Positions 1 to 16,531 of a DNA stretch of 64,000 nucleotides are shown one piece after another. The first letter of the stretch is position 1. Every line of letters starts with the position of its first letter. The notes beneath the pieces are model-generated. The model did no database searches. It was not told where the DNA came from and was given only the letters and a program-made list of their open reading frames with translations. Source of the stretch: Flavobacteria bacterium MS024-2A (lineage in GTDB: Bacteria > Bacteroidota > Bacteroidia > Flavobacteriales > Flavobacteriaceae). Position numbers and translations under genes: made by a program. The DNA lies in assembly GCA_905182305.1 (NCBI GenBank), contig CAJJBB010000003.1:1-64000 (forward strand), given 5' to 3'.

Positions 1-388
1 GAAAGATTCATGAAGCAAAGTTCTCTGATATTTCCCCAATTATTTGGGGAGATGGAACCGCAAGAAGAGAATTTATGTATGCTGAGGACTTCGCGGATTT
101 TATATACTGGTCTCTTTGATAATTACAATCTATTAGAGAGTTATACTAACGTGGGAATTGGTAAAGACTGGTCAATATTAGAATATTACCAAAGAAATTT
201 CAGAAGTTGTTGAATTCAAGGGCTCAGTTGAATTTGATTAATGGACAAAGCACCAACTGGGATGCGCAGCAAGATTATGCTCAATCGAAAAACTATTAAA
301 ACTTGGGTGGAAACCTAAACATTCCCTCGAGCAGGGTTTGAAAAAAACTTATGAATTTTATTTTAGAACATTATGGAATATAACTTAG
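1..388 (+). pseudogene. fcl: GDP-L-fucose/GDP-L-colitose synthase (Fcl/ColC-like), C-terminal part, frameshifted
   Basis: NAD(P)H-dependent epimerase/reductase that acts on GDP-4-keto-6-deoxymannose (or its 3-deoxy form) in the cytoplasm. Read across frame changes, the sequence gives REFMYAEDFADFIYWSL, then NYNLLESYTNVGIGKDWSI, KAPTGMRSKIMLN and a tail close to LGWKPKHSLEQGLKKTYEFY. This is the typical C-terminal third of Fcl, with the stop at 386-388. The N-terminal NAD-binding part lies outside the window. At least four single-base indels break the frame, for example an extra T near 114 and an extra A near 193. Protein similarity on both sides of each indel is intact, so sequence error is more likely than decay. 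The stop overlaps the next gene. Because that gene is ColD-like, this copy could be a colitose synthase rather than a fucose synthase. Confidence 0.75.
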
Positions 389-1584
389 CTACCTCAACTT
401 GGGATCATAAAGGAAATAGGATGCCATACAATGCGGTTATTGAATCGGACGCGTTATTCAGATGGGGCCAAAGGTTGAGAAATTTGAAAAAAGATTTTGC
501 TGACTTTATTTGGATCTAAATACGCTGTACTGTGTAGTCTCCGGAGTCTACTGCTAACTTACTAATGGTAGCTGCTCTTTTTTATTCAAAAAAGACCCTT
601 AAATTTACAAAGAGGCGATGCGATAATAGTTCCAACGGTTTCTTGGTCCACAAACTTATTTTCCCTTACAGCAATATGGTTTGAAGCTTGAAGTTTGTTG
701 ATATTAAGATTACTACCTTTAGGGAACTATGATATTACCTGAGCGAAGTTCATGCTATTACTGAAGATACAAAAGCTACAATGGCAGTTAATTTACTTGG
801 TAATCCTAATGATTTTGATCGAAATACTTACAAATTAATTTTAGCCGGTAGAAACATTGTTCTTATTGAGGATAATTGTGAGTCTATGGGATGCGAAAGT
901 ATCAATGGTAAACTTACAGGAACATTTGGTCTTAATGGGCACTTTTAGCTCATTTTTTTTCCCATCATTAGTCGCCACCATGGAGGGAGGGGTGGTCATT
1001 GTCACTGATGACGAAGAGATTTATCACGTGCTCTTGTGTTTACGCACTCATGGTTGGACACGAAACTTACCTAAACACAACAAGGTGACAGGTGTTAAGC
1101 AAGATGACCCTTTTGAAGAGTCTTTTAAGTTTGTATTGCCCGGCTATAATTTACGACCAGTAGAAATGAGTGGCGCTATTGGGCTTGAGCAGTTGAAAAA
1201 GCTTCCTAGCTTTTCATACAGCAAAGGAGGAAGAAATGCGGAGTTTATTTTCATCCAATTATTTTAGAGGGCATAGTAATAGGTTTATAATTCAACAAGA
1301 AACAGGTGAAAGTTCCTGGTTTGGATTTTCACTAGTTATAGATGATAAGTTCAAAAAGAGCTGAAATAATCCAAGCTTCTTAACACAATCAAAGATTGAT
1401 TGTAGGCCTATAGTTACCGGAGATTTCACCCAAAACCCAGCACTTGAAGTTTTTTGACTACGAAATCATGGGCGAGTTACCTAACTCTAAGAAAATTCAT
1501 ACTGACGGTTTCTTTGTTGGGAATAGTCATTTGGATTTAACGGATGAACTACATTATTTAAGCTCAAAATTACTCAAGCTATAA
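373..1584 (+). pseudogene. ColD/RfbH-like sugar 3-dehydratase of the DegT/DnrJ aminotransferase fold, frameshifted
   Basis: PLP-dependent enzyme of the DegT/DnrJ/EryC1/StrS fold. The composite reading starts MEYNLATSTWDHK and gives KFEKDFADLFGSKYAVLCS, VIEDNCESMG-like IEDNCESMGCE, TMEGGVVIVTDDEEIYHVLL, LRTHGWTRNLPKHNKVTG, FKFVLPGYNLRPVEMSGAIG, SSWFGFSLVI and CRPIVTGDFTQNPA. Near 957-976 one frame reads FFSHH immediately before the TMEGG segment of the other frame. In normal aminotransferases a lysine sits here. A His-His is typical of ColD (GDP-4-keto-6-deoxymannose 3-dehydratase) and RfbH. Together with the Fcl-like gene just upstream this suggests GDP-colitose synthesis (inference). At least eight frameshifts are present. 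An intact 136-residue stretch (857-1267) argues against long-term decay. Confidence 0.7.
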
Positions 1585-1585
1585 A

Positions 1586-2541
1586 ATGATTAGGAAGGCT
1601 ACTTTTTTTGTAGAAAATAAGGTCTATTTAGGTAACGAAATATTTAATTTAAATAATAAAAAGTTAAATAGGGATAATTGTCAATCACAGTGTAATTTAC
1701 TTAAAGAAAAATTTTTAATTGCTTTTTCTATCTCACCAAGATTGTTGTAAACAATTCCAAGGTTATTATATGCCTCAGCATAGTCCGACTATCATAATTT
1801 TGAAAATTCAAATTCCTATCTTATAATATGGGAGTCTGAAGTTATATTGAAAAGTAACTGGGACAAGAAGAATTATGTTTTTTTTAAAAAAATATTTACT
1901 TGGAATGATGAACTTGTAGACAATACATTTTTTTTTAAAATAAATTTTCCTCATAAAGAAACTAAAGAAAAAATACAAGCTGCTATGCGGCATGCAGGCG
2001 GCTATCATTGGAAAGCCTTGAAAATTATATTCTAAAAGAAGGGAAGTTATAAAATGGTTTAAAGAAGTAAAACCAAATTTATTAAATCTATATGGCCCGA
2101 ATTGGAATAGGGTTATATTTAAAAACAAGTATTTAAATTTCATTTTCATCAAAATTAAACTTTAGAAATAAAATTTTACAAAGGTTTGATTGAAAACAAA
2201 ACAAAGTATTTAGGTAAATATAAATTTTCAATATGTTTTGAAAATGCAAAAAATTATCCTGGATATATTACTGAAAAAATATTTGATTGCTTTTGCAGCA
2301 ATGTTTTACCTGTTTATCTAGGCCCTCACAAATACATTAAATTATCTGCCTGAGAATTGTTTTATTGATTATAATAAATTTAATTCAGTTGAATCCCTTT
2401 GTGAATATTTACAGAATATGACAGATGAAACTTATAGTGAGTATCTTGAAAATATTGATCATTTTCTCAATTCGGAATCAATAAAAACAATTTAGTATTG
2501 ACAACTTCATTTCAACGATAATAAAAAATATTGAAATATGA
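1586..2541 (+). pseudogene. GT10 (alpha-1,3/4-fucosyltransferase family) glycosyltransferase, frameshifted
   Basis: Glycosyltransferase that would add a GDP-linked deoxysugar (fucose or colitose type) to a surface glycan. The composite reading contains LIIWESEVILKSNWDKKNYV, FKKIFTWNDELVDN and YKFSICFENAKNYPGYITEK followed by IFDCF. The last segment is the hallmark C-terminal motif of GT10 enzymes. The start is an ATG at 1586-1588, just after the previous stop (1582-1584). The stop at 2539-2541 overlaps the next ATG (ATGA). Several frameshifts lie near 1745, 1800, 2035, 2155, 2330 and 2490. The gene is visibly richer in A+T than the two genes before it. Donor and acceptor cannot be read from sequence. 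Confidence 0.7.
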
Positions 2542-3592
2542 TAAGTACTTTATTTATTGGTTTTCAATATGCTTATGGAAATCCAAAAGAAGCGATCGGT
2601 TTAGATTCTGATATTTTTGTGAATTCCATGTCTAAAATTGATGATGTTGATGCTTATTTTTTTCCAATTGATAATTTAATTGATGTTGAATTTGAAATAA
2701 AAAATCATCTCGTCAAAAATAAATATGACATAATATTCTTTAATTTAATTAAAACTGAATTCCCAAATAGTTTGTTGAGTTTTTTAAAAAGAAAATTATG
2801 TAACAGTAAATTGGTTTGGCGACGACCAATGGAGATTTTACGACTTTTCATTAAAATATGCACCATATTTTACTTTTATAATAACTACGGATAAATTTAA
2901 ATTGAATGAATATAAATTAAAAGGATATGAAAATGTCTTGCTTTCCCAATGGGCTGCCCTTAGTATAATTCCTGTTCCAGAAAAAGTTGATTATTTATAT
3001 GATATTTCTTTTTGTAGGAGCATACAGTATTAATAGGGAATATGTTATTGAATATTTAAAAAGTAATGGTTTTAAAGTTTCTGTTTTTGGTAAAGGATGG
3101 AATAAATCTATTTCTATTAATGAAATGAATGAAGTAATGTTGAAATCTAAGATAAATTTTAAATTTATCGAACAGTACTCCAACTAGTTTTAACTATCTA
3201 GGATTTTTATTTAGAGTTTTAAAGAAATCTTGGATCTATTTCTTAAAAATTTAGATTTAAAAACTTCATTAAAATTTTTCTTAAAATTTTTGAGAGGTAT
3301 TAAAATTTTGACTTATAATAAATCAGACGAACAAATTAAAGCAAGAAAATTTTGAAAATACCATCGAATTATGGCTTTCAAATTACAAAGTATGCTGTTG
3401 GCATTGAAGATTATTATAATATAGGAAAAGGAGATTGTAGTTTTTTAATTCTCTTAAGAACTTAAATTACTGTGTGAATATTATTTAAGTAATGAAATTG
3501 AAAGGCGCAATATTTTGGATGCATCATATAAAAAAACATTCAATCATACTTATACGGAACGATTAAAGCAAATTATAAATGATATTAGTTGA
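2538..3592 (+). pseudogene. CgeB-like glycosyltransferase, frameshifted
   Basis: Probable cytoplasmic glycosyltransferase of the CgeB (Glyco_trans_1_2) type. The N-terminal frame reads MISTLFIGFQYAYGNPKEAI. After a frame change near 2810 it gives WFGDDQWRFYDFSLKYAPYF-like sequence, then DISFVGAYSINREYVIEYLK and FKVSVFGKGWN. The C-terminal part reads IPSNYGFQITKYAVGIEDYY and then YTERLKQIINDIS. The DIVFVGxxxxxR and FGxGW segments followed by a conserved C-terminal half are typical of this family. Four or more indels break the frame. The stop (3590-3592) touches the ATG of the next gene. The base composition is extremely AT-rich. The sugar transferred is unknown. Confidence 0.6.
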
Positions 3593-4560
3593 TGCTATTT
3601 ATATTAATTCTTTTGGAGGTAAGACAATTTTAGAATTATTTCAGATAAAACCATACTTTCCGCTTCAAAAAAAGATTTTAGGATAGAAAAATTAATAAGA
3701 AATACAAAAAATAGAAACTTTGATCAAAAATTAGATAGCTTTAAAAAATTTCTACTTAAAAAAGATGATTGTAAAAAGATTAAGTTATATATTTTCCCCT
3801 TTAGCCTTGTAAGTATAAGTTAAAGACATTTTTTTTTCATTAATAATTAATTGCTAAATCCCTTTCCATCATAAAATTAATTTAAAAAGTAAGCTATTTA
3901 ATCTTCTTAAGTCTTTTTACATAAAGCGTTTTAATCAGAAAAATTATAAATGGATTGTTCAGACTCCACTGATGAAAAAACTGCTTCAAGATGATTTAAA
4001 GATAGATTCTGACAATTGCCATGTCTATCCTTTTTATAAAATAGGATCAAATAAATCTTCTTTAGACAAGATCTCTAATAATTTTGTTTATTTATCTAGT
4101 GGTATTTCTCATAAGAATCATAAAAGATTAATAGAGGCATTTGTTTTTGTAGCAAATAGAGTAAATCTAGAGATTACATTACATCTTACTATAGATAACG
4201 AGGCATTATTTAGTCCTATCCAATAATTTAAAAATTAAATTTCATGGAACATTAAGCATTGAGAGGAGTAAATGAATTATATAATACTTAGTGAGTTTGC
4301 AATTTATCCGTCTTTAGTTGAAAGTTTTGGGTTGCCATTAATAGAAGCTGCTAAATCATGGTTGTAAGGTAATTAGCAAGTGATTTCCTTATGTTCACGA
4401 AATAATTAACCCTCTTTAACTTTTGATCCTTATTCAGTAGAAAGTATCTCTATGCAATTTTAAAAGCATTAATGAGGATTTATCAGAAACAAAGGTATTA
4501 GTTGAAAATAAATTAGATAACTTTATAGAGTTTATAATTAGTCAAGATGTTCAAAAATAA
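3592..4560 (+). pseudogene. GT4-type glycosyltransferase, frameshifted
   Basis: Probable group 1 glycosyltransferase. The composite protein begins near YINSFGGKTILELF and continues through KLIRNTKNRNFDQKLDSF and KWIVQTPLMKKLLQDDLKID. It then shows FVYLSSGISHKNHKRLIEAF and YPSLVESFGLPLIEAA. The ESFGLPLIEAA stretch is the EX7E-type nucleotide-sugar binding motif of GT4 enzymes. The longest unbroken piece is 3972-4226. Frameshifts are frequent, including one directly after the start codon and one near 4360. The reading frame ends at 4558-4560, overlapping the start of the next gene by 14 bases. Substrate unknown. Confidence 0.6.
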
Positions 4561-5528
4561 AATACTTCTTATTACTGGTGGGACAGGTTCTTTTGGGAAT
4601 GCTGTTTTAGATAGATTTTTAGATTCAGATATAAAAGAAATTAGAATTTTTTCTAGGGATGAAAAAAAGCAACACGACATGAGAGTTGCTTACAATAATC
4701 CCAAGATTAAGTTTTACATAGGAGATGTAAGAGATTATAGAGTTCGATCAGAGCTAATGATGTAGATTATGTTTTTCATGCTGCAGCATTGAAACAAGTT
4801 CCTTCTTGTGAATTTTATCCAATTGAGGCAGTTAAAACTAATGTTTTAGGAACAGAGAATGTTTTAAATGCAGCCATTTCTAATGATGTTAAAAAAGTAG
4901 TTTGCCTGAGTACAGATAAAGCAGTCTATCCTATTAATGCAATGGGAGTGTCAAAAGCAATGATGGAAAAAGTTTTTGTTGCAAAGTCTAGAAACTCAAA
5001 AACACCATTATAACTGGGACACGATATGGAAATGTGATGGCCTCAAGAGGTTCAGTAATTCCTCATTTTCACGATCAGATTATTAACGGTAAAAATATTA
5101 CAGTTACTGATCCAAATATGACCAGATTCATGATGACTTTAGATCATGCTGTTGAACTTGTTTTGTTTGCTTTTAATAATGGTCAAAGCGGTGATATTTT
5201 TGTCCAAAAGTCACCAGCAAGTACCATAGGAGATTTAGCTATTGCTATGAAAGAGATTTATAATTCTGATGTAATCATTGAAAATATTGGAATTAGACAT
5301 GCCGAGAAAATGCATGAAACATTACTTAGTGTTGAAGAACGTATGGTTAGTGAAGATTTAGGAGATTATTATAAAGTATCTGCAGATAATAGAGACCTGA
5401 ATTATAATAAATATTTTTCTGAAGGGATTGATTCAAAAGCCGTCTTAGAAGAATACAATTCTTTTAACACCAATAGACTTAGCATTCAAGAATTAAAAGA
5501 TTTATTGGGAACTGTAGGCTATAAATAA
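4547..5528 (+). pseudogene. UDP-GlcNAc 4,6-dehydratase (5-inverting; CapE/WbjB/WbvB family), frameshifted
   Basis: Extended SDR enzyme that converts UDP-GlcNAc to a 4-keto-6-deoxy-L-hexulose, the first step to UDP-L-FucNAc or UDP-L-QuiNAc. It starts MFKNKILLITGGTGSFGNAV with the NAD-binding TGGTGSFG. It continues with VFHAAALKQVPSCEFYPIEA and CLSTDKAVYPINAMGVSKAM. The SDR tyrosine position is taken by methionine (MxxxK), which is normal for the CapE/FlaA1 family. The C-terminal half reads ASRGSVIPHFHDQIINGKN. Two indels (about 4750 and 5010) split the frame into three pieces that line up without loss. The stop overlaps the next ATG by one base. The next two genes complete the pathway. Confidence 0.85.
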
Positions 5529-6405
5529 TGAAAATCTTAATTCTTGGTGGGGATGGAATGATTGGGCATAAAATGCTCAAGTTTTAAGTGTTCAAAATCA
5601 CGAAATTTTTATTTCTGTTAGAGAAAATAAAGATTTGACTTTAAAAAGAATCTCACCAAAGGCAAAAGTATTTTTCAATGATTTTTTAAAGGACAGCATC
5701 CTTGATTTTTTGGATAAAGTTAATCCAGATGTAATTATTAATGCTATTGGAATAACCATTAGAAGAGGGGCTGCTGAAAATATATCTGATACAATTTACT
5801 TTAACTCTTTATTTCCCCATCAGATATCTAGTTGGGCCTTAGCATTCAAAAAAAGATTAATTCATTTTAGTACAGATTGTGTTTTTTCTGGTAGCGAAGG
5901 GAGTTATTTAGAAGACGCAACACCTAATGCTTTGGATTATTATGGCAAAACAAAAGGTTTGGGCGAGATTAATTCTAAAAGTTCACTAACGATTAGATCT
6001 TCAATGATTGGTCCTGAATTATTTAATAAAACGGAACTTTTTGAATGGATAATAAATAATAAAGAGAAAGAAATTAATGGTTTCTCAAGAGTTATGTATT
6101 CAGGGGTGACAACAGTTTATATGGCGAGACTAGTAGCAGATTTAATTGATAATCACAAGAATTTAAGTGGTATTTATAATGTAGCATCCAAACCAATTAG
6201 CAAATTCGAATTGCTACATTTAATAAATGATAACTTTGATCTTGGATTAATTATTAATGATGACAAAACCGTAATATCCAATAAAACATTAAACGCTTCA
6301 AAAATAGAGAAAGAGATAGGCTTACAACCGCCTAGTTGGGATGAATTGATTTTTGAGTTAAAAAAAGACTATATGAACTTCATAGACTTGTATAAAACTA
6401 TATAG
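5528..6405 (+). pseudogene. RmlD-type 4-keto-sugar reductase (WbvR-like), one frameshift
   Basis: SDR of the dTDP-4-dehydrorhamnose reductase superfamily. In this context it probably reduces the 4-keto product of the preceding dehydratase to UDP-L-RhaNAc. The N-terminus MKILILGGDGMIGHKML carries the GGxGxxG dinucleotide site. After one indel near 5580 the rest is open, with INAIGI, HFSTDCVFSGSEGSY and YYGKTKGLGE (the YxxxK pair). At about 292 residues it lacks the C-terminal cupin domain of CapF/WbjC reductases, which favours the WbvR branch and so UDP-L-QuiNAc over L-FucNAc (inference). The start ATG overlaps the upstream stop (TAATG). The stop is three bases before the 2-epimerase gene. Confidence 0.75.
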
Positions 6406-6407
6406 AG

Positions 6408-7553
6408 ATGGCAACAAAAGTAATGACCATAGTAGGCACTAGACCTGAAATCATCAAACTAAGCAGAGTTATTGCAGAGTTAGAAGAAAATGTAGAACAT
6501 ATATTAGTTCATACAGGTCAAAATTATGATTATGAGTTAAATGAAATATTTTTTAATGATCTAAGGGTTAAAAAGCCAGATCACTTTCTTAATTGTGTTG
6601 GAGATACTACTGCAGAAACTATTGCTAATATTATTTCTAAATCAGATAAAATTATTGAACAAGTTCAACCAGATGCTGTTTTACTTTATGGAGACACCAA
6701 TTCTTGTCTCTCAGTAATTTCGGCAAAAAAAAGACAGGTTCCAATATTTCATATGGAAGCTGGGAATAGATGTTTTGACCAGAGAGTTCCTGAAGAGTTA
6801 AACAGGAAAATAGTAGATCATTTAAGTGATATTAACATGCCACTTACAGAGCAAGCTAGAGGTTATTTAATTAGTGAAGGAATAAGACCTGAGACTATTA
6901 TTAAGACAGGATCTTGCATGAAAGAAATTTTAAATTTTTATAAATCTGAAATATCAGAAAGTCAGGTGTTAAAAAATTTAGAATTAAAAAAAGACAATTA
7001 TTTTATTGTTTCCATTCATAGAGAAGAAAACGTAGATTATAAAAGCAATCTTGAAAACTTACTTCACTCATTAAATGCAGTTGCTGAAAAGTATCGGTTA
7101 CCCGTGATTGTGAGTACACACCCAAGAACCAAAAACAGAATTGAACAATTAGATGGAGATATAAAAGTCAATCCTTTGATCAACTTTATGAAACCAATGG
7201 GCTTTTTCGATTATATAAAATTACAGCAAGAGGCTAAGTGTGTTATTAGTGATAGTGGAACTATAACTGAAGAATCTTCAATTTTAGGTTTTCCAGCTAT
7301 TATGATAAGGAAAGCTCATGAAAGACCTGAGGGTATGGATGAAGGGACTTTAATCATGTCTGGATTAGAAAAAGAACGAGTGCTTGAGTCCATTAATGTG
7401 ATGGTAAGTCAGAACAAAAAATTTACTTCTAATATCATAAAAGATTATAATGTTGATAATGTTTCTATTAAAGTTACACGCATTATTCTTAGTTATATTG
7501 ATTATGTAAATAGAACTGTTTGGAAAAAAGATACTGTTACTAAGACTTTTTAG
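6408..7553 (+). CDS. UDP-N-acetylglucosamine 2-epimerase family protein (WbjD/WbvD/CapG type)
   Basis: Non-hydrolysing UDP-sugar C2 epimerase, 381 residues, cytoplasmic. It starts MATKVMTIVGTRPEIIKL with the family motif GTRPEIIK. Further family landmarks are HTGQNYD, LLYGDTNSCL, HMEAGNRCFDQRVPEE, VSIHREENV, STHPR and ISDSGTITEESSILGFP. The residues usual for catalysis (Asp/Glu in HMEAG and PEE, His in SIHREE) are present. Following the 4,6-dehydratase and the RmlD-like reductase, it most likely performs the last step to UDP-N-acetyl-L-quinovosamine (or L-fucosamine). A general WecB role in making UDP-ManNAc is less likely but possible. The frame is intact, unlike its upstream neighbours. Confidence 0.9.
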   Translation: MATKVMTIVGTRPEIIKLSRVIAELEENVEHILVHTGQNYDYELNEIFFNDLRVKKPDHFLNCVGDTTAETIANIISKSDKIIEQVQPDAVLLYGDTNSCLSVISAKKRQVPIFHMEAGNRCFDQRVPEELNRKIVDHLSDINMPLTEQARGYLISEGIRPETIIKTGSCMKEILNFYKSEISESQVLKNLELKKDNYFIVSIHREENVDYKSNLENLLHSLNAVAEKYRLPVIVSTHPRTKNRIEQLDGDIKVNPLINFMKPMGFFDYIKLQQEAKCVISDSGTITEESSILGFPAIMIRKAHERPEGMDEGTLIMSGLEKERVLESINVMVSQNKKFTSNIIKDYNVDNVSIKVTRIILSYIDYVNRTVWKKDTVTKTF

Positions 7554-7557
7554 AGCT

Positions 7558-8761
7558 ATGAATATTCTGGTTGTTTCTCAATATTTTTACCCAGAAAATT
7601 TTAAAATAAACGACCTTATTTTTTCTTTAAAAAAAAGAGGTCATCAAATTACTGTGCTTACTGGCAAGCCAAACTATTCAAAAACTCATTTTTTTGAAGG
7701 CTATGGATGGAAAAGTGATGATTTTGAAACTATAAATGATATCCCTGTCTATAGAGCTAATTTATTTTCAAGGAGAAATGGAGGTGCATTTAGATTATTT
7801 TTAAATTATATTTCATTTGCGTTTTTAGCCCCTTTAAAAGTTAGAAAAATAAAAGGCTCCTTTGATGCCATTTTTGTTTATCAAACATCACCTGTTACCG
7901 TTGGAATCCCGGCAATTTTCGCTAAAAAACTTTTTAAAACTCCTATTTATTTTTGGGTTCAAGATCTCTGGCCTGAAAGTTTAACTGCTGCAGGAGGTGT
8001 AAACAACAAGTTAGTGCTAGGGTTTTTTAATTCACTTACTAAGTGGATTTATAATCAATCAAAAAAAGTTTTAATCCAGTCTGATGGCTTTAGAGAGTAT
8101 ATTTTAAATCAGGGAATTCCAAATGATAAAATCATCTTTTATCCTAATCCCACTGAAGATTTCTATAAGCCATTCCAAGAGGTCAAAGAATATCAAGAGT
8201 TTTTTCAAAATGAATTTTTTAATATAGTTTTTGCTGGAAATATTGGAGAAGCACAAAGTTTCAAAACAATTATAAGAAGCTATTAATAATATTAAAGAGC
8301 TTCCTGTTAAGGTGATTGTTTTAGGAGATGGACGGTATAAAGAAACTGCCTTAAGTCTAATAAAAGAAAAAGGGTTGGAGTCACATTTTAATTTTTTGGG
8401 ATCTTTCCCCCCAACTGAAATGCCTAAATTCTTTTCACATGCAGATGCACTATTGGTTTCACTTAAAAAAGAAAAGATCTTCTCACTTACAATACCGGCT
8501 AAAATTCAATCTTATTTAGCATGTGGAAAACCTATAATTGCTTCTATTGATGGAGAGGGGGCTAAAATAGTTAATGATGCTAAGTGCGGCGTAACTTCTC
8601 CTGCAGAAGATTCGCTTAAATTAAGTGAGGGCATAAAAGAATTAATGGCTTTGGATAAATCTAAGCGCAGTGAAATGGGAAATAATGGAAGGGCCTACTA
8701 CGAAAAAGAGTTTGACAGAAATAATCTTTTAGAAAAGCTGGAAGGCATATTCAAATCTTAA
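7558..8761 (+). pseudogene. wbuB: GT4 glycosyltransferase, WbuB-like (L-FucNAc/L-QuiNAc transferase), one frameshift
   Basis: GT4 family transferase that probably attaches the acetamido-L-sugar made by the three preceding genes. The first part (7558-8286) gives MNILVVSQYFYPENFKINDL, GHQITVLTGKPNY, YQTSPVTVGIPA and YFWVQDLWPESL, all typical of WbuB. The second part (8312-8761) gives VIVLGDGRYKE, FNFLGSFPPTEMPKFFSHAD, SLTIPAKIQSYLACGKPII and a C-terminal helix. One extra A near 8270-8275 separates them: removing it restores TIIEAINNIKELPVKVIVLG. It follows the epimerase by four bases. A sequence error is likely because everything else is intact. Confidence 0.8.
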
Positions 8762-8844
8762 TAAATACCATCTTTTAAAGGTTTGTTAGGAAAATTGTTA
8801 AAAAGTTTAGTGTAATTGATTTTTAGACTGTTACTCCTTTGGCC

Positions 8845-8852
8845 TAAATTTG
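8845..8852 (+). promoter_or_regulatory. Candidate -7 promoter element (TAAATTTG)
   Basis: TAAATTTG matches the Bacteroidota -7 consensus TAnnTTTG and ends four bases before the ATG at 8857. Transcription would begin almost at the start codon, so this gene may be leaderless. No well-placed -33 TTG is seen. Confidence 0.4.
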
Positions 8853-8856
8853 CAGA

Positions 8857-9216
8857 ATGCCATTTAATCCAAAAACAGCAAAAGCAGCAGGTCAAAAAAG
8901 TAGGCGCGGTCCGTCAAAATTACTAGACCCCAATATTAAAGAAAAAATGGAAATTCTTTATGAAGGGGTTCTTGATCATTTAATTATGCATCAAGAAGAT
9001 CTCTCTATGTCTGATAGAGTAAAACTTCTTCAAAGCCTTTCAAATTATATTCTCCCAAAAACTAAACCTGTTAGAGATGAATTTACCATTGCAAACATTA
9101 CAGAAAGAAAGAGTATTCTTTTATGGAAAGAGGACCAGATCCTACAAAGTAGCAGCTACTTTCATAAAAGCATCTGCGTAAGTGTCCTTATTAACCTGCG
9201 AGCCTATATAACTTAA
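8857..9216 (+). CDS. Small terminase-like/DUF5681-like hypothetical protein, 3' end overlapping the recombinase gene
   Basis: 119 residues, function unknown. The first 75 residues look like a real protein: a basic N-terminus (KTAKAAGQKSRRGPSK) followed by a helical stretch with SDRVKLLQSLSNYILPKTKP. This resembles the small phage-terminase-like family with a basic GRP-type head and an RVKLxxxLxxYxLPK helix (similarity judged by eye). From about residue 95 the frame runs through the antisense of the recombinase C-terminus. The last 25 residues therefore look accidental, as if the original 3' end was lost or replaced. It has its own -7 element and sits between the polysaccharide genes and the convergent recombinase. 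A DNA-binding partner of the recombinase is possible but unproven. Confidence 0.5.
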   Translation: MPFNPKTAKAAGQKSRRGPSKLLDPNIKEKMEILYEGVLDHLIMHQEDLSMSDRVKLLQSLSNYILPKTKPVRDEFTIANITERKSILLWKEDQILQSSSYFHKSICVSVLINLRAYIT

Positions 9217-10131
9217 AAAAGTACTTTCCTTTGAATGCCCAGTGATTTGCATAAGTATTGGAGTTTCTATTTTCCCAAAGTAATTAGTAGCAAAAGATCG
9301 TCTTAAATCATGAGAAGAGATAAGACTATATTTTGGGTGAGTGCCCAATCTTTTTCTTCTTGTCTTAGAGCATAATTTATAACCACTTACCATTTCATAA
9401 ATACCCGCTATTTGACAAATTTGCTTTATTTGCCTGTTAAACAATTGAGCTGAAATAGCATATGGAAAACGCTGTTTTAAAATTTGAATGACTTCTTTAT
9501 CTACCACTCCAACAGTCACATATTTATCGGTTTTTTGCTGATTAATATCTATGTAAACGCCGTTTTCTATAAATCTGAGCTGTGATGGTTTAAGTGCCAA
9601 TAGATCAGAAACCCTCTGGCCTACATAAAGCCCAATCAGTATCCATTTTCTTGCATTTTCAAGAGTGGAAGGTAAATCTCTAAGTGCCTTTATTTGTTTT
9701 ATTTCTTCAAATGATATGGTTTGTAATACTCGATCTTTACTTTTTTGAGTAAATGATTCTATGTGTCTGGTATATGGATTTACATTAATACTCATTCTTT
9801 CAGCTTCTTTACAAATCATTTTTAGAAGCTTTAATTGAAGGCCAGCGTTATTAAGTGAATACTCTTTTTCAGTTAAAAGCCACTCTTTAAAAGCATTAAC
9901 TAACATGTGATCTATTGTATCTAACATGATCGATTGACCAAAATCAGATTCAAATTCCTGAATTAAATCATAAAAACGTTTTAGATTCCTGATAGAATTA
10001 TTGGACAGACCAAGTGAGCCACTTCTTTTAAGTCTTCTTAGAGGTGCATGTTTTATATAGTTAGAGATCTGAGTGAGTAATACCCCTTGATCTCTACCAT
10101 TAGCAACTATTTTATCGTTGTAATCACGCAT
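9142..10131 (-). CDS. Tyrosine recombinase/integrase
   Basis: Site-specific recombinase of the tyrosine (phage integrase) family, 329 residues. Residues 1-150 form the SAM-like core-binding domain. The catalytic domain follows with GLYVGQRVSDLLALKPSQL (first Arg), INQQKTDKYVTV (Lys), SSHDLRRSFATNYF (His and second Arg), MQITGHSKESTFLSYI (His and the Tyr nucleophile). All catalytic residues are therefore present. It lacks the extra N-terminal arm-binding domain of many mobile-element integrases. It converges on the small gene at 8857 with a 75-base overlap. The upstream gap is full of palindromes. No other phage or transposon genes are near, so it may act locally on this glycan locus (inference). 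Confidence 0.9.
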   Translation of the reverse strand: MRDYNDKIVANGRDQGVLLTQISNYIKHAPLRRLKRSGSLGLSNNSIRNLKRFYDLIQEFESDFGQSIMLDTIDHMLVNAFKEWLLTEKEYSLNNAGLQLKLLKMICKEAERMSINVNPYTRHIESFTQKSKDRVLQTISFEEIKQIKALRDLPSTLENARKWILIGLYVGQRVSDLLALKPSQLRFIENGVYIDINQQKTDKYVTVGVVDKEVIQILKQRFPYAISAQLFNRQIKQICQIAGIYEMVSGYKLCSKTRRKRLGTHPKYSLISSHDLRRSFATNYFGKIETPILMQITGHSKESTFLSYIGSQVNKDTYADAFMKVAATL

Positions 10132-10395
10132 TTTTTATTGTGTAATTTTCATATGATTTGTGAATATTATAACTAACTTCAAATTTCATTTAACATTTTA
10201 AATAAAATTTTCTAACGTAAATTTGTTTAAAATTTACATTTAAATATACGTTATTTTTTATGTTAAATAACATATAAAGTCAATAAATACAGGGTCTTAC
10301 AAAGAGTAGTTTTGAAATAACTACGGGCTGTAGTCAAAATCAATAATTATCTATTATAAAGAGAAAACCTTATTATCTTTAAAAAAAATTAACAC
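10132..10395. other. Palindrome-rich gap between recombinase and rfbA
   Basis: Very AT-rich non-coding stretch with several short perfect inverted repeats: ATTTAA/TTAAAT at 10188-10203; a nested pair with outer TAACGTA/TACGTTA at 10213-10253 and inner GTAAATTT/AAATTTAC at 10217-10237; ATGTTA/TAACAT at 10260-10273; GTAGTT/AACTAC at 10306-10324; ACTAC/GTAGT at 10320-10334. The last two share one arm and could form alternative hairpins. The stretch lies upstream of both the recombinase (-) and rfbA (+). It may contain both promoters and recombinase binding sites. Confidence 0.5.
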
Positions 10396-11277
10396 ATGAA
10401 AGCCATCCTCCTTGCCGGCGGGACAGGATCCAGACTCTTCCCAGTTACACTAGGAGTTTCTAAGCAGTTATTACCTGTTTATGATAAGCCCATGGTATAT
10501 TATCCCTTATCTGTACTTATGGAAGCAGGGATTCGAGAAGTTTTAGTGATCAGTACTCCAGAAGATTTAGGGCAATATGAGCGCCTTTTGGGTGATGGAA
10601 GTCAGTGGGGAATCAGCCTTCAATATAAAGCACAGCAAAAGCCAAATGGTTTAGCAGAAGCTTTTATTTTAGGAGAAGAATTTATTGGAGAGGAAGCGGT
10701 TTGTTTGATATTAGGAGATAATATTTTTTATGGCGTAGATTTTTCAGAACAGCTTGAAGCGGTTAAACAAAGAACAAGTCTTGGTTCGAAGGCTACCATT
10801 TTTGGATATACTGTTAATGATCCAAAGCGTTATGGTGTTATAGAATATGATAATCAAGGCAAAGCGATTTCTATTGAAGAAAAGCCTGAAAAGCCAAAAA
10901 GCAATGAAGCGGTGGTAGGCTTGTACTTTTATCCTAATTCGGTAATTGAAATAGCAAAACAAATCAAACCTTCCGAGCGGGGTGAATTGGAAATAACTGC
11001 TGTAAATCAAAAATATTTGGAAGACGGAAATCTACAAGTTGAGGTGTTGGGAAGAGGTTTTGCCTGGTTGGATACAGGAACCCATGAATCTTTATTGGAA
11101 GCAGGCCAATTTATTCATACCATTGAAAAAAGGCAAGGGCTTAAAGTAGGGTGTCTAGAAGAAATAGCTTTTGAAAAAGGGTTCATCACAAAAGAGCAAC
11201 TTTTAGAAGGTGCAGAAAAAATGAAACAAACAGAATACGGAAGCTATTTAATTAAAAAATACAGCGATAAATCATAA
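10396..11277 (+). CDS. rfbA: Glucose-1-phosphate thymidylyltransferase
   Basis: First enzyme of dTDP-L-rhamnose synthesis: glucose-1-phosphate + dTTP gives dTDP-glucose. 293 residues, the usual length. The N-terminus [18 protein letters not shown] holds the nucleotidyl-transfer signature GGxGxRLxPVT. Further landmarks are [28 protein letters not shown] (metal-binding Asp), [20 protein letters not shown] and [15 protein letters not shown]. The frame is intact. It opens the cluster rfbA-rfbC-rfbD-rfbB, which joins the polysaccharide locus on the other side of the recombinase module. Start ATG follows the long palindromic gap. Confidence 0.96.
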
Positions 11278-11304
11278 CTTTAAGCTTCAATTAAACGATC
11301 CATT

Positions 11305-11876
11305 ATGAATATTAAAACTACTCCTTTCAAGGAGGTTTTTATTTTAAAGCCTAACGTTCATCTAGATGAACGGGGTTCTTTTATGGAAAGTTTTAATGAG
11401 AGAGAAGTTGAAAAAGCTTTAGGGAGAAAAATATGCTTTTGTCAAGACAATCTAACGCTTTCCAAAAAAGGAGTTTTAAGGGGCTTACATTATCAATTAC
11501 CTCCCTTTAGTCAAACGAAATTAGTTCAGTGTATTCAAGGAAGCGTATTAGATGTGGTTGTGGATATAAGAAAGGATCTCCCACCTTTGGGCACCATTTT
11601 AGTTGTGAATTAAGCGCAGAAAATCAATTACAACTTTTTATTCCCAGGGGGTTTGCTCATGGATTTATTACGTTAAGTGAGACGTCCATTTTTATCTATA
11701 AAGTAGATCAATATTATAATTTTGAGAGTGAAGGAAGTATCACTCCAAATGATCCTGCTTTAGGGATAGATTGGCAAATACCCCAATCAGAATGGATTCA
11801 ATCTGAGAAAGACAAAAAGCATCCTACACTAGCAGAGGCAACCCTTTTTGATTATAATACAGACCTCTATGCCTAG
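11305..11876 (+). pseudogene. rfbC: dTDP-4-dehydrorhamnose 3,5-epimerase, one frameshift
   Basis: Cupin-fold epimerase of dTDP-rhamnose synthesis. The first part reads VHLDERGSFMESFNE, FCQDNLTLSKKGVLRGLHYQ and TKLVQCIQGSVLDVVVDIRK. The second part reads SPTFGHHFSCELSAENQLQL, FIPRGFAHGFITLSE and YYNFESEGSITPNDPALGID. They join if one A is added in the A run near 11571-11574. The catalytic His in GLHYQ and the FIPRGFAHGF segment are present. Full length would be about 190 residues, normal for RfbC. The stop (11874-11876) overlaps the start of rfbD by eight bases. Confidence 0.88.
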
Positions 11877-12737
11877 TTATCTAGTAACAGGCGGCTCAGG
11901 TCAATTGGGACAATGCTTTCAGGCGGTTGCCAAAGAATTTCCTGAGATAAATTTATTTTTTGCTTCCAGAAATGAAGTAGACATTACGCGACCGGAAACC
12001 ATTGCAAATTTTTATAGCAAAAATCCTTTTGTTGGCATTATCAATTGCGCCGCTTACACCAATGTTGATCAGGCGGAAAATGAACAAGAGAGCGCCTTAA
12101 AATCAACACTGAAGGACTTCAAAATCTAATTGACTTTGCCGAGAATAAAAATCTTTCAATTATTCATTTTTCAACAGATTATGTCTTTGATGGACAGTCT
12201 TCTGAACCCTATCAAGAGAGGAGTCAACAAATCCAATAGGGATCTATGGAAAATCAAAATTACAAGGGGAAATACTCCTTTCAAAAAGCAGCTGTAAGAA
12301 TGTAACGATCAGAACATCATGGCTATTTAGCCCTTTTGGAAAAAACTTTGTTAAGACGATTGCTCGAATAGCAAAAGAAAAATCAGCATTAAAGGTAGTT
12401 GATGATCAGTGGGGAAACCCACCTATGGAATTGATTTAGCAAGAACCGTTCTAAAACTTATTTCAAATAACACAATCTATACTTTTCCCATTTTACATTA
12501 TGCCAATCAAGGAGTGTGCAGTTGGAAAGAATTTGCAGAAGCTATTGTCAATGAATTAGAGTGTAAAACCATAATTCAAGGAATTACAACTTCAGCCTAT
12601 CCAACTTAGCAAAACGCCCTAAATACAGTATCTTGGATACTGGACGTATAGAAAAAGAATTACAGATTGAAATTCCAACGTGGCAAGAAAGTTTAAAAAA
12701 ATGCATACAAATTTTAAAAAGTGATGGAAGCCTTTAA
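11869..12737 (+). pseudogene. rfbD: dTDP-4-dehydrorhamnose reductase, several frameshifts
   Basis: Last enzyme of dTDP-L-rhamnose synthesis (SDR fold). The start MPSYLVTGGSGQLGQCFQ has the GGxGQLG NADPH site, then INCAAYTNVDQAENEQESAL. After frame changes come SIIHFSTDYVFDGQSSEPYQ, PIGIYGKSKLQGEILL (YxxxK), VTIRTSWLFSPFGKNFVKTI, YGIDLARTVLKLI and LAKRPKYSILDTGRIEKEL. Indels lie near 12105, 12225, 12260, 12412 and 12603. Each preserves similarity on both sides, so they look like sequence errors clustered in this gene. The stop at 12735-12737 lies inside the start of rfbB. Confidence 0.85.
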
Positions 12738-13710
12738 AACGGTATTAATAACTGGGGGAGCTGGATTTATTGGTTCTCATGTTGTCCGAAAGATGGTCAA
12801 CAAATATCCAAATACGCAGCTAGTGAATTTGGACGCGCTTACTTATGCAGGAAATTTGGATAATTTAGCCGATGTTGCTAATGCATCGAATTATACTTTT
12901 GTTCAAGGGGACATTATAGATGCTAGCTTCGTTAACACTTTATTTGACCAACATCAATTTGATGGGGTAGTGCATTTAGCTGCAGAATCCCATGTTGATA
13001 ATTCAATAAAAAACCCTTTAGGATTTGCTCAAACCAATGTGATGGGAACCTTGAATTTATTGGAAGCAGCAAGAAACCAATGGAAAGATGATATGGCAAA
13101 CAAACGCTTTTATCATATTTCAACTGATGAGGTTTTCGGAAGTTTAGGGAAAGAAGGTGCTTTTACAGAAGAAACGGCTTACGATCCCAGATCTCCTTAT
13201 TCGGCCTCTAAAGCGGCATCGGATCATTTTATACGGGCTTATTTTCATACCTATGATTTACCCGTGGTGCTTTCTAATTGTTCTAATAACTATGGTCCTG
13301 CGCAATACCCAGAAAAACTTATTCCTTTATTTATCAAAAATATTGTAGAAAACAAACCTTTACCTGTTTACGGAAAAGGAGAAAATATTCGCGATTGGTT
13401 GTATGTAGAAGATCATGCAGAAGCTATTGATCTAGTTTTACACCAAGGAAAAATAGGAGAAACCTACGCAATTGGAGGTAATAATGAAATACGAAATATT
13501 GATATGGTACACACTTTGATTGAGGTAACCGATCGATTATTAGGTCGCCCAAAGGGTACTTCTTTAGATCTGATATCTTATGTTGTTGATCGTTTGGGTC
13601 ATGATTTCCGGTATGCTATTGATGCTTCTAAAATCAAAAATGAATTGGGTTGGAAACCAATGACACATTTCGAAGAAGCGATTGAAAAAACAGTTAAGTC
13701 ATTTTTGTAA
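12724..13710 (+). CDS. rfbB: dTDP-glucose 4,6-dehydratase
   Basis: Second step of dTDP-rhamnose synthesis. Extended SDR, about 328 residues. Landmarks: VLITGGAGFIGSHVVRKM (NAD site), HLAAESHVDNSI, YHISTDEVFGSLG (catalytic Thr-Asp-Glu) and YSASKAASDHFIRA (YxxxK). It also has SNCSNNYGPAQYPEKLIPLF and NIRDWLYVEDHAEAI. A GTG at 12721 directly precedes the ATG at 12724; ATG is chosen. The frame is intact, in contrast to rfbD, whose end it overlaps. It is the last gene of the rfb cluster. Confidence 0.96.
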   Translation: MEAFKTVLITGGAGFIGSHVVRKMVNKYPNTQLVNLDALTYAGNLDNLADVANASNYTFVQGDIIDASFVNTLFDQHQFDGVVHLAAESHVDNSIKNPLGFAQTNVMGTLNLLEAARNQWKDDMANKRFYHISTDEVFGSLGKEGAFTEETAYDPRSPYSASKAASDHFIRAYFHTYDLPVVLSNCSNNYGPAQYPEKLIPLFIKNIVENKPLPVYGKGENIRDWLYVEDHAEAIDLVLHQGKIGETYAIGGNNEIRNIDMVHTLIEVTDRLLGRPKGTSLDLISYVVDRLGHDFRYAIDASKIKNELGWKPMTHFEEAIEKTVKSFL

Positions 13711-13747
13711 ATAATAGATATCTTCAAATGCAATTAAAATTAAAAGT

Positions 13748-14122
13748 ATGAAAACAAACGCTTTACATTTCGGATTATTGCTTTTACGCATTGGCTTCAG
13801 TGCTGCAATGTTGACTCATGGCTATGGAAAATTTATGAAAGTTTTAGCAGGAGATTTTAGCTTTGGCGATCCCATTGGAATCGGCCCAACAGCCTCATTA
13901 ATTTTATGTGCTATTGCTGAATTTATCGCTCCAATTTTTCTTATTGTAGGATGGAAAACCCGTTGGTTTTCTTTAATAGCTGTAATAAACATGTTAGTAG
14001 CATTTATAATTGCTCATGATGGGGATCCCTTTTCAAAAAAAGAAAAATCATTTTTATTTTTAATTGCTTTTGTGGTCCTCTACTTTACAGGTCCAGGCAA
14101 GTATTCCATAGACAGACAATAA
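13748..14122 (+). CDS. DoxX family membrane protein
   Basis: 124-residue integral membrane protein with four predicted hydrophobic segments (about residues 8-28, 48-66, 74-92, 98-114). The N-terminus LLLLRIGFSAAMLTHGYGKF matches the DoxX start, with the conserved LRIxxGxxxxxHGxxKF pattern. GPTASLILCAIAEFIAPIFL and KTRW also fit the family. DoxX proteins are thought to work in redox or quinone-related processes, but the role here cannot be read. It lies 37 bases after rfbB on the same strand and may be co-transcribed with it. Confidence 0.85.
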   Translation: MKTNALHFGLLLLRIGFSAAMLTHGYGKFMKVLAGDFSFGDPIGIGPTASLILCAIAEFIAPIFLIVGWKTRWFSLIAVINMLVAFIIAHDGDPFSKKEKSFLFLIAFVVLYFTGPGKYSIDRQ

Positions 14123-14136
14123 GCTGGGTTCAGTGC

Positions 14137-14167
14137 TTGTTTTATGATTAAAATAATTATATATTTG
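14137..14167 (+). promoter_or_regulatory. Promoter of rplU-rpmA (TTG-N20-TATATTTG)
   Basis: TTG at 14137-14139 and TATATTTG at 14160-14167, spaced by 20 bases. This fits the Bacteroidota housekeeping promoter (-33 TTG, -7 TAnnTTTG). The ATG of rplU is 23 bases downstream. Confidence 0.7.
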
Positions 14168-14190
14168 CCGTCCATAAAAAGAAACTAATA

Positions 14191-14733
14191 ATGTACGCAA
14201 TTGTAGAAATAGCAGGGCAGCAATTTAAAGTTGCAAAAGACCAAAAGCTTTTCGTACATCGCTTAACAGATAAACAAGGAACGAAAGTTTCGTTTGATAA
14301 AGTATACCTGTTAGATGATGGAAAAAAAGTTACTCTTGGCGCCCCGGCTATCACTGGAGCTTCTGTAGAAGCAAAAGTGGTGAGTCACCTTAAAGGTGAC
14401 AAAGTGATCGTTTTTAAGAAAAAACGACGAAAAGGATATCGTGTTAAAAATGGACACCGTCAAGCATTAACAGAATTGTTAATTGAAAACATCAAAGCTT
14501 CTGGTGCTAAAGCTAAAAAAGAAGCGGTAGCAAAGCCAGTTGTAGTTAAAGAAAAGCCAGCTGTAAAAAAGGCAGCACCTAAAGCAGCTGTTAAAAAAGA
14601 AGCGCCTAAGGCTGAAGTTGTAAACTTTTCCAAAATGACGGTAGCTGAATTAAAAGCAGCAGCAAAAAAGAAAGGTGTAGAAGGAATTTCAGCAATGAAA
14701 AAAGCAGATTTAATTGCTGCATTATCTAAATAA
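14191..14733 (+). CDS. rplU: 50S ribosomal protein L21 with long basic C-terminal extension
   Basis: Large-subunit protein that binds 23S rRNA. Residues 1-102 are the L21 domain: MYAIVEIAGQQFKVAKDQKL, FDKVYLLDDGKKVTLGAP, KVIVFKKKRRKGYRVKNGHR and TELLIENI. Usual length is about 100-105 residues, but this copy has 180. Residues 105-150 are a Lys/Ala/Pro-rich linker. Residues 150-180 (FSKMTVAELKAAAKKKGVEG...) resemble a SAP/Rho-N-like helix-extension-helix motif. Such tails are common on L21 of Bacteroidota. It is followed by rpmA 21 bases downstream. Confidence 0.96.
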   Translation: MYAIVEIAGQQFKVAKDQKLFVHRLTDKQGTKVSFDKVYLLDDGKKVTLGAPAITGASVEAKVVSHLKGDKVIVFKKKRRKGYRVKNGHRQALTELLIENIKASGAKAKKEAVAKPVVVKEKPAVKKAAPKAAVKKEAPKAEVVNFSKMTVAELKAAAKKKGVEGISAMKKADLIAALSK

Positions 14734-14754
14734 TAAACCTAAAACCATTGTATC

Positions 14755-15015
14755 ATGGCACATAAAAAAGGAGTAGGTAGTTCGAAAAATGGAAGAGAAT
14801 CAGAATCAAAACGCTTAGGCGTTAAGATCTTTGGTGGGCAAGCAGCTCGTGCTGGAAACATCATCATTCGTCAAAGAGGAACCGCTCATCACCCTGGCGA
14901 AAATGTTTATCTAGGTAAAGATCACACCCTTCACGCAAGAGTGGACGGTCTTGTTAAGTTTACCAAAAAGAGAGATAATAGATCTTTCGTTTCTGTTGTT
15001 CCTTTCGAGGCTTAG
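14755..15015 (+). CDS. rpmA: 50S ribosomal protein L27
   Basis: 86-residue large-subunit protein whose N-terminus reaches the peptidyl-transferase centre. It begins [20 protein letters not shown] and continues [38 protein letters not shown]. These are the invariant L27 features. There is no cleavable N-terminal extension as found in Firmicutes. It forms the standard rplU-rpmA pair and ends in front of a strong hairpin terminator. Confidence 0.97.
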
Positions 15016-15037
15016 AAATAATAAATTACTTTTTATC

Positions 15038-15072
15038 AAAACCTGTGATGTTTATACATTACAGGTTTTTTT
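15038..15072 (+). terminator. Intrinsic terminator after rpmA
   Basis: Inverted repeat AAAACCTGTGATGT (15038-15051) / ACATTACAGGTTTT (15056-15069) with one G-T pair and a four-base loop, ending in a T run. Confidence 0.85.
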
Positions 15073-15161
15073 ATACTTTAAATCCTTACAATAAATATAT
15101 TGTTAATTGCTTTATCAGGCCAAATGAATCAGCTTCATAAGTATTTGTAACATTAGTACAT

Positions 15162-15190
15162 AAAAAAAGCCGGTGCAGAACCGACTTTTA
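15162..15190 (-). terminator. Intrinsic terminator after ahcY
   Basis: AGCCGGT (15168-15174) pairs with ACCGACT (15180-15186) with one wobble pair. The seven A on the left (15162-15168) give a T run in the minus-strand transcript, 22 bases after the ahcY stop. Confidence 0.75.
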
Positions 15191-15211
15191 ATTTTTAAGT
15201 AACTAACCTAG

Positions 15212-16531
15212 TTAGTAACGATAATAATCTGGCTTATAAGGACCTTTTACGGTTACTCCAATATAATCTGCTTGATCTTTTGAGAGAGACTCTAATTCCA
15301 CGCCCAAATGGTCTAGATGCAGGGCAGCTACTTTCTCATCTAAATGCTTTGGAAGCATATAGACTTTATTATCATATTTATCTGAATTTAACCACAATTC
15401 AATCTGAGCTAATGTTTGGTTAGTAAATGAATTACTCATCACAAAACTGGGATGACCGGTTGCACACCCAAGATTTACTAAGCGTCCTTCTGCCAGAACA
15501 ATAATTTGTTTTCCCTCCTCTAGAGTGTATAAATCTACTTGAGGTTTGATCTCAGATTTAGAATCTCCATAGTTGTCATTTAACCAGGCCATATCAATTT
15601 CATTATCAAAGTGCCCTATATTACAAACAATAGCTTTGTCTTTTAGTGCAAGGAAAGATTCCTTTTTTAAAATATCTTTATTTCCCGTGGCCGTACAAAC
15701 AATGTCTGCATTTCCAATAACATTAGAAAGTTTTTTAACCTCAAAGCCGTCCATTGCCGCTTGAAGCGCACAAATTGGATCAATTTCAGTTACTGTAACA
15801 ATAGCTCCTGCTCCCTTAAAAGATGCAGCAGTTCCTTTACCAACATCACCATAGCCGCAAACCACTACACGTTTTCCGGCAAGCATAACGTCTGTTGCTC
15901 TTCTAACAGCATCAACAGCACTCTCTTTACAACCGTATTTATTATCAAATTTTGACTTTGTTACCGAGTCATTTACATTGATTGCTGGCATGGGAAGCGT
16001 TCCATTTTTAACACGTTCATACAAACGGTGAACTCCAGTGGTGGTTTCTTCCGAAAGCCCTTTGATTTCTTCAACCATTTCAGGATATTGATCTAAAACC
16101 ATATTAGTTAAATCTCCACCATCATCTAATATCATATTAAGAGGCTTTTTATCTTCACCAAAGTGTAAGGTTTGCTCAATACACCATTCAAATTCTTCTT
16201 CATTCATTCCCTTCCAAGCATAAACAGGAATCCCTGCCGCTGCAATTGCCGCTGCTGCATGGTCCTGAGTAGAAAAAATATTACAAGAACTCCAAGTAAC
16301 TTCGGCACCTAAAGCCACTAGAGTTTCAATAAGGACAGCTGTTTGAATAGTCATGTGCAGACAACCTGCAATTCGCGCACCTTTTAATGGTTGTGATGGT
16401 CCATACTCTTGACGTAATGCCATTAATCCTGGCATCTCTTTTTCTGCTAACAAAATTTCTTTTCTACCCCATTCTGCAAGGGAAATGTCTTTTACTTTAT
16501 AAGATAAGGGTTGAGTTGATTTTGTTTCCAT
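15212..16531 (-). CDS. ahcY: Adenosylhomocysteinase
   Basis: NAD-dependent hydrolase that splits S-adenosylhomocysteine into adenosine and homocysteine, keeping methylation reactions going. 439 residues from the ATG at 16531 ([20 protein letters not shown]). A longer in-frame start at 16567 was rejected because it would lie upstream of the predicted transcript start. Landmarks: [65 protein letters not shown] (Rossmann NAD site), [11 protein letters not shown] and the canonical C-terminus KPDYYRY. Divergent from the phosphopantetheinyl transferase gene. Confidence 0.97.

Follow-up and report, generated by a model that had tools for sequence, protein, structure and literature searches.

In the accessible part of the work on replacement islands of aquatic bacteria, exchange of glycan genes is ascribed to homologous recombination; swapping of whole glycan clusters may alter phage sensitivity, and its mechanism is called unclear (PMC4033161). 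Accessible portions of other papers describe an Elizabethkingia capsule locus with a conserved Wza/Wzc part and a variable remainder (PMC5458099), islands that Salinibacter acquired by transfer, with tRNAs, repeats or XerD-type recombinases at their flanks (PMC6060240), and further marine islands in which site-specific recombinases are present (PMC3478194). A search of titles and abstract openings, mostly outside subscription journals, returned no published account of the gene pair described here, a tyrosine recombinase and a small partner gene at glycan loci. At seven loci of marine Flavobacteriales, this module marks the border between the constant and the variable parts of the surface-polysaccharide genes.

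A convergent gene pair between glycan genes and rfbACDB

The window analyzed is a 64,000-nucleotide stretch (G000:C3:1-64000) of the 1.86-Mb, 11-contig genome of Flavobacteria bacterium MS024-2A. According to its ORFs and Pfam matches, a small gene on the plus strand and a tyrosine recombinase gene on the minus strand converge at 8857-10395, flanked by glycan genes and rfbACDB. This placement, proposed in the first-pass annotation, is borne out by the Pfam matches of the neighbors (Epimerase_2, Glyco_trans_4_4, NTP_transferase and GDP_Man_Dehyd), and the ORF list places the two genes where stated, at 8857-9216 (+) and 9142-10131 (-). The glycan block ends beside the small gene with a glycosyltransferase gene (7558..8761, +) that is split over two frames (Glyco_trans_4_4, 1.2e-11 for the first part), and the constant side begins with rfbA (10396..11277, +; NTP_transferase, 8.4e-75). 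The names rplU, rpmA, ahcY, glmS, hemH, capD, sfp, rfbC, rfbD, wzc, doxX, DUF4270 and glgA were assigned by eye, without a Pfam call. Inspection of the window by eye revealed no further mobile genes, as had been claimed; no tRNA was found in the window, and Rfam gave no match in 8700-10500 at E<=0.5.

The small gene (8857..9152, +; natural stop 9150-9152) encodes a protein of 98 aa in relatives, and its stop and that of the recombinase overlap by 11 bp in all four relatives measured (MS024-3C, LSUCC0859, G226 and G021). The conserved C terminus of the relatives (..FMERGPDPTK*) is encoded in the window, but in another frame; therefore, the window copy is frame-shifted at ~9110-9122, and its long antisense tail, previously read as an original end that had been replaced, is the product of that shift. 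An assembly error is likely, although not proven, because frame splits also affect other conserved window genes (rfbC, rfbD, the glycosyltransferase and a capD-like gene); conserved genes broken across frames at 4547-5528, 7558-8761 and 11305-11876 suggest assembly indels. The label "terminase-like" was not supported: neither Pfam, PHROGs, NCBIfam nor PADLOC assigned the small protein to a significant family. No relative of the small gene appeared among viral contigs, and a sequence search of solved structures (query A1) gave nothing at E<=0.001. The predicted structure of the small protein is all-helical and of low confidence (mean pLDDT 64.3). The only other relatives found were orphan proteins of 66-110 aa with 24-29% identity. 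This distantly similar, helical family, which starts with ..GxPNKxT.., has no library name and occurs singly and scattered in genus genomes (L033, L034, L035, L044-L046, L048 and L049).

The recombinase (9142..10131, -; 329 aa) is a complete ORF with matches to Phage_integrase (5.7e-10) and Phage_int_SAM_5 (2e-8), both beyond the Pfam cut-offs. R173, K200, H274 and R277 are invariant across 14 homologs, H299 is nearly invariant and Y308 is present; we take these residues to be the tyrosine-recombinase catalytic set (R, K, H-x-x-R, H, Y). The protein thus has the catalytic domain of the Phage_integrase tyrosine recombinases, and the earlier description of a full catalytic recombinase stands, with strand exchange at a specific site as a prediction from sequence. 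Pfam gave no arm-binding domain match in the window protein, and the match in a relative (G035) was weak and below the cut-off. The structure model is confident (mean pLDDT 85.1), and its closest PDB folds are XerH and XerA (5jjv, 5hxy) and lambda integrase at 15-18% identity. Close relatives with names are those of Flavobacteria bacterium MS024-3C (L053), Flavobacteriaceae bacterium LSUCC0859 (L054) and MAG CPBay_Spr15L08_38 (L055). The recombinase is under purifying selection (dN/dS 0.07-0.10 in four pairs); damaged copies, with stops or frame breaks, are found in G021, G058 and G236.

Distribution and boundaries of the module

Recombinase matches at E<=0.001, mostly distant family members, occurred in 20 of 60 relatives and 10 of 38 genus genomes. 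Among 395 order genomes, nine had a recombinase profile match at E<=1e-70 and four had the small gene at E<=1e-8. Thirteen genomes carry the recombinase, or the right end of the module alone, beside surface-glycan loci, which were sorted by eye into five kinds of neighbor: rfbA (G000, G033, G020 and G035), an epimerase plus sugar transferase (MS024-3C and LSUCC0859), wza (G226, G236, G256 and G071, the last two with the right end only), TerB-DnaJ (G058 and G231) and DUF4886 (G021). Seven loci can be viewed on both sides (G000, MS024-3C, LSUCC0859, G021, G058, G226 and G236); at each of them, the recombinase, the small gene and then the glycan genes follow in identical order and orientation, and inspection by eye showed neither phage nor conjugation genes. 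The remaining six loci are cut off by a contig end within the module or its right end; their glycan side was deduced from the constant flank and, for G231, solely from having that flank in common with G058. The thirteen exclude distant recombinases elsewhere and three genomes with related sequences. G301 has a recombinase fragment adjoining wza, in reverse orientation relative to the others (L138, G301:C198, 2512-2730), and the related recombinases L080 (G300:C7) and L081 (G415:C12) lie by cysN-type genes, separated from glycan genes by a transposase and others.

The rfbA gene was detected in 14 of 38 genus genomes (E<=1e-100). Four have a recombinase directly upstream; contrary to what the first-pass annotation named as a refutation, the pair is neither absent from all relatives nor surrounded by visible prophage. 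Two further rfbA genes lie at a contig end (G011 and G022), and eight, including that of G015, have a glycan-type nearest upstream ORF. Of 11 wza loci in 52 family genomes, three have the module or right end, one has the G301 fragment and seven have neither. The module is dispensable because the site is empty at eight rfbA loci and seven wza loci. Each genome with the small gene has one copy, save for a truncated extra in MS024-3C, and in the searched genomes no significant copy lay outside glycan loci.

ORFs of at least 100 aa within the fetched stretches were compared for two species pairs. On the small-gene side, no ORFs were common to G226 and G236 (12 versus 10) or to MS024-3C and LSUCC0859 (8 versus 9), whereas on the recombinase side eight of nine G226 ORFs matched G236 at 81-99%. 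The differing content between conserved neighbors that defines a replacement flexible genomic island was found for G226 versus G236, with the conserved side shown at one flank. An rfbA-like gene lies within the LSUCC0859 glycan block, near the module (L054, 10064-10936).

The module is conserved as a pair, and species have it in common as a block that ends at the palindrome on the constant side. The window and G033 recombinases are 95% identical in amino acids with a dS of 0.29, compared with saturation at rfbA and doxX and values of 2.2 (rfbB), 0.80 (rplU), 1.6 (rpmA), 1.7 (ahcY) and 3.1 (sfp) in flanking genes. For G226 versus G236, dS was 0.016 in the small gene and 0.11 in the recombinase, against 0.15 (wzc start), 0.39 (wza), 0.46 (glgA-like), 0.48 (glmS) and 0.76 (DUF4270); the contrast is graded on the wzc side because the value at the wzc start is near that of the recombinase. 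MS024-3C and LSUCC0859 showed no excess similarity (recombinase 1.49, hemH 1.03). Sliding identity between the window and G033 fell from ~0.9-1.0 to ~0.7 beyond the palindrome and dipped to 0.77 within the recombinase; between G226 and G236, it fell from 1.0 to ~0.4 before the small gene and from ~0.97 to 0.88 beyond the palindrome.

The right end (10234..10334) is non-coding sequence 5' of the recombinase, conserved in a 12-locus alignment. Its ATACGTTA box (10246-10253) is present in 12 of the 13 genomes, being absent from G058, and is invariant in all 12 aligned rows. The palindrome ACTACGGRCTGTAGT is found at the right end in nine of 13 genomes; it is absent from G020, G035 and G058, and G021 has a different palindromic stretch. 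In the window, it reads ACTACGGGCTGTAGT (10320..10334) and forms the outer limit of the shared block; G000 and G033 each have one copy of this exact sequence, and the other 36 genus genomes have none. The R form of the palindrome was found in 6 of 395 order genomes, always at a module right end, and a reversed-palindrome control in 5 of 395 (read from the table by eye), so its frequency alone is no evidence, and it is the location of all six that counts. Two families have the recombinase, and a third (G071) has the right end. G231 and G226 have the module in common up to the palindrome, followed by unrelated neighbors, and the sequences immediately beyond the palindromes have no obvious common target. 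No second palindrome half-site was found in LSUCC0859 (75 kb), MS024-3C (68 kb), the window, G226, G236, G021 or G058, in stretches that may stop short of the distal limit of the glycan block at some loci. The ATACGTTA box alone has one extra occurrence in each of LSUCC0859 and MS024-3C, and a left-end 13-mer has one in MS024-3C.

The left end (8783..8839), conserved non-coding sequence 5' of the small gene, aligns with two copies in MS024-3C and with LSUCC0859 and G015, and it scores 55.3 bits with a model whose five training sites score at least 43.1 bits. Candidate copies elsewhere, matched in 40 of 40 genomes at E<=0.5, were dismissed as noise, with none above 20.4 bits among the matches listed. 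The G015 copy is orphaned (52 columns, 83%), with an acyltransferase gene on one side and rfbA on the other; a putative small-gene relic after it was rejected as not significant, with 4 of 60 shuffles scoring equally high. In MS024-3C, the left end and 5' part of the small gene are present twice (282 bp, 93%), flanking an acyltransferase module of ~2.7 kb, and the truncated copy adjoins the same glycosyltransferase gene that flanks the intact small gene in the window. Such a duplication would be expected from a circle integrating within the small gene, of which it gives a hint, and other recombination could also produce it; it is the single case among 11 genomes examined.

Proposed glycan exchange and alternative explanations

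We tentatively favor the explanation that the module is a resident recombinase unit through which glycan blocks are inserted or exchanged. The unit would comprise the left end, the small gene, the convergent tyrosine recombinase and the right end with its ATACGTTA box and palindrome. The recombinase would work on the module's own ends, glycan gene blocks would be inserted or exchanged on the small-gene side, and the small protein may be an accessory DNA-binding or directionality factor. We counted in support the constant order at seven of seven loci, the variable glycan side, purifying selection, low module dS, the MS024-3C duplication, neighbors that differ right beyond the palindrome, and sister recombinases by variable-looking surface lipoprotein genes. 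Counted against it were the lack of a second half-site at the seven loci, the single duplication, the empty sites, the damaged copies, the lack of excess similarity between MS024-3C and LSUCC0859, and a glycan side that lies past the contig end in six of 13 genomes.

The sister recombinases were placed by a 42-row tree, in which nine glycan-edge proteins and five surface-lipoprotein-side proteins split at a 100/98 branch, with G300 and G415 in the glycan group. In LSUCC0859, ~31 kb separates the glycan-type copy from three copies of the lipoprotein type. Given these positions, both sister groups lie beside surface determinants. At L115 (LSUCC0859, G433:C8:160000-179999), three sister recombinases alternate at 2986-14281 with large repetitive surface lipoprotein-like genes, only one of which has a lipoprotein signal. 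The arrangement resembles a shufflon or a set of silent cassettes; apart from the gene repeats, no strong inverted repeats were found there. Sister-group recombinases also adjoin similar repetitive surface-protein genes at L057 (G011:C9) and L058 (G018:C48).

We consider it less probable that the recombinase and an accessory protein form a minimal selfish element of ~1.55 kb, which mobilizes itself and either favors glycan loci or persists in them. Block-wise sharing with both edges in G226 and G236, the mixture of occupied and empty sites and the orphan left end by rfbA in G015 are consistent with such an element, but its orientation toward the glycan side is constant wherever visible, no obvious common target exists beyond the palindrome, and the small-gene copies are single (the truncated one in MS024-3C excepted), with no significant copy elsewhere than at glycan loci among the genomes searched. 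Less probable still is a passive role, in which the remnant of an old integrase marks the border and hitchhikes as mere crossover sequence in homologous swaps of glycan clusters: purifying selection on the recombinase and conservation of the non-coding ends across families argue against it, whereas the damaged copies, the peak of G226-G236 similarity in the small gene and the homologous recombination invoked for replacement islands, in the accessible part of that account (PMC4033161), would agree with it.

The lack of inverted repeats, of a second half-site and of phage genes makes an inversion switch, a paired-att island and a prophage remnant unlikely. In accessible sections of the Bacteroides literature, tyrosine recombinases beside surface genes drive inversions (PMC11852207, PMC4747536), but we regard inversion control of the glycan genes as very improbable here, since the inverted repeats in window 1-16000 are only short, AT-rich pairs, none convincing and none flanking an invertible segment of the shufflon or promoter type, and G000 and G033 each have only one palindrome. 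Thus, of the proposed "domesticated switch or exchange point", the switch was not supported, but the pair is conserved in other genomes too, and glycan loci change at its position. A paired-att integrase island was rejected because no second att core was found in the stretches scanned at the seven loci. No array of integron cassettes was noticed. Descent from an ordinary prophage or conjugative element is hardly credible: the recombinase does match the generic integrase phrog_1 (1e-26), but the best phage and plasmid matches are ~30% identical, no phage or conjugative companions were visible by eye at the seven two-sided loci, and the viral contigs yielded no relative of the small gene.

More speculative than the resident unit itself is a portable glycan-exchange device, in which the recombinase, together with its small partner, would recognize the module's own ends and place incoming surface-glycan blocks at one fixed junction. 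If this were true, replacement islands would gain an enzymatic route besides chance homologous exchange. A conserved recombinase, a fixed partner and a palindrome at the border make the swap mechanism directly testable, and the module is candidate machinery that may help several ocean bacteria to change their sugar coats.

Comparison with known systems

The XerH and XerA single-recombinase systems supply the closest PDB folds, and XerH sites are palindromic in one entry; the module recombinase differs from them in its low identity (15-18%) and in being confined to glycan-locus borders rather than present once per chromosome. With Bacteroidota integrases of genomic islands, ICEs and phages, it has the catalytic and SAM-like domains in common, but the window protein is without an arm-binding match, other element genes or a second att-like site. 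In the accessible portion of the description of Bacteroides surface-variation recombinases and shufflons (Tsr0667; PMC11852207), a tyrosine recombinase likewise sits by variable surface determinants; unlike those systems, the module has no inverted repeats, its small partner gene is fixed, and its palindrome is present once per genome. The replacement flexible genomic islands for O-chain and capsule resemble our loci in that a whole glycan block varies between conserved neighbors. Their boundaries, in the accessible part of that account, are without clear hallmarks of illegitimate recombination (PMC4033161), whereas here a recombinase module lies at the border.
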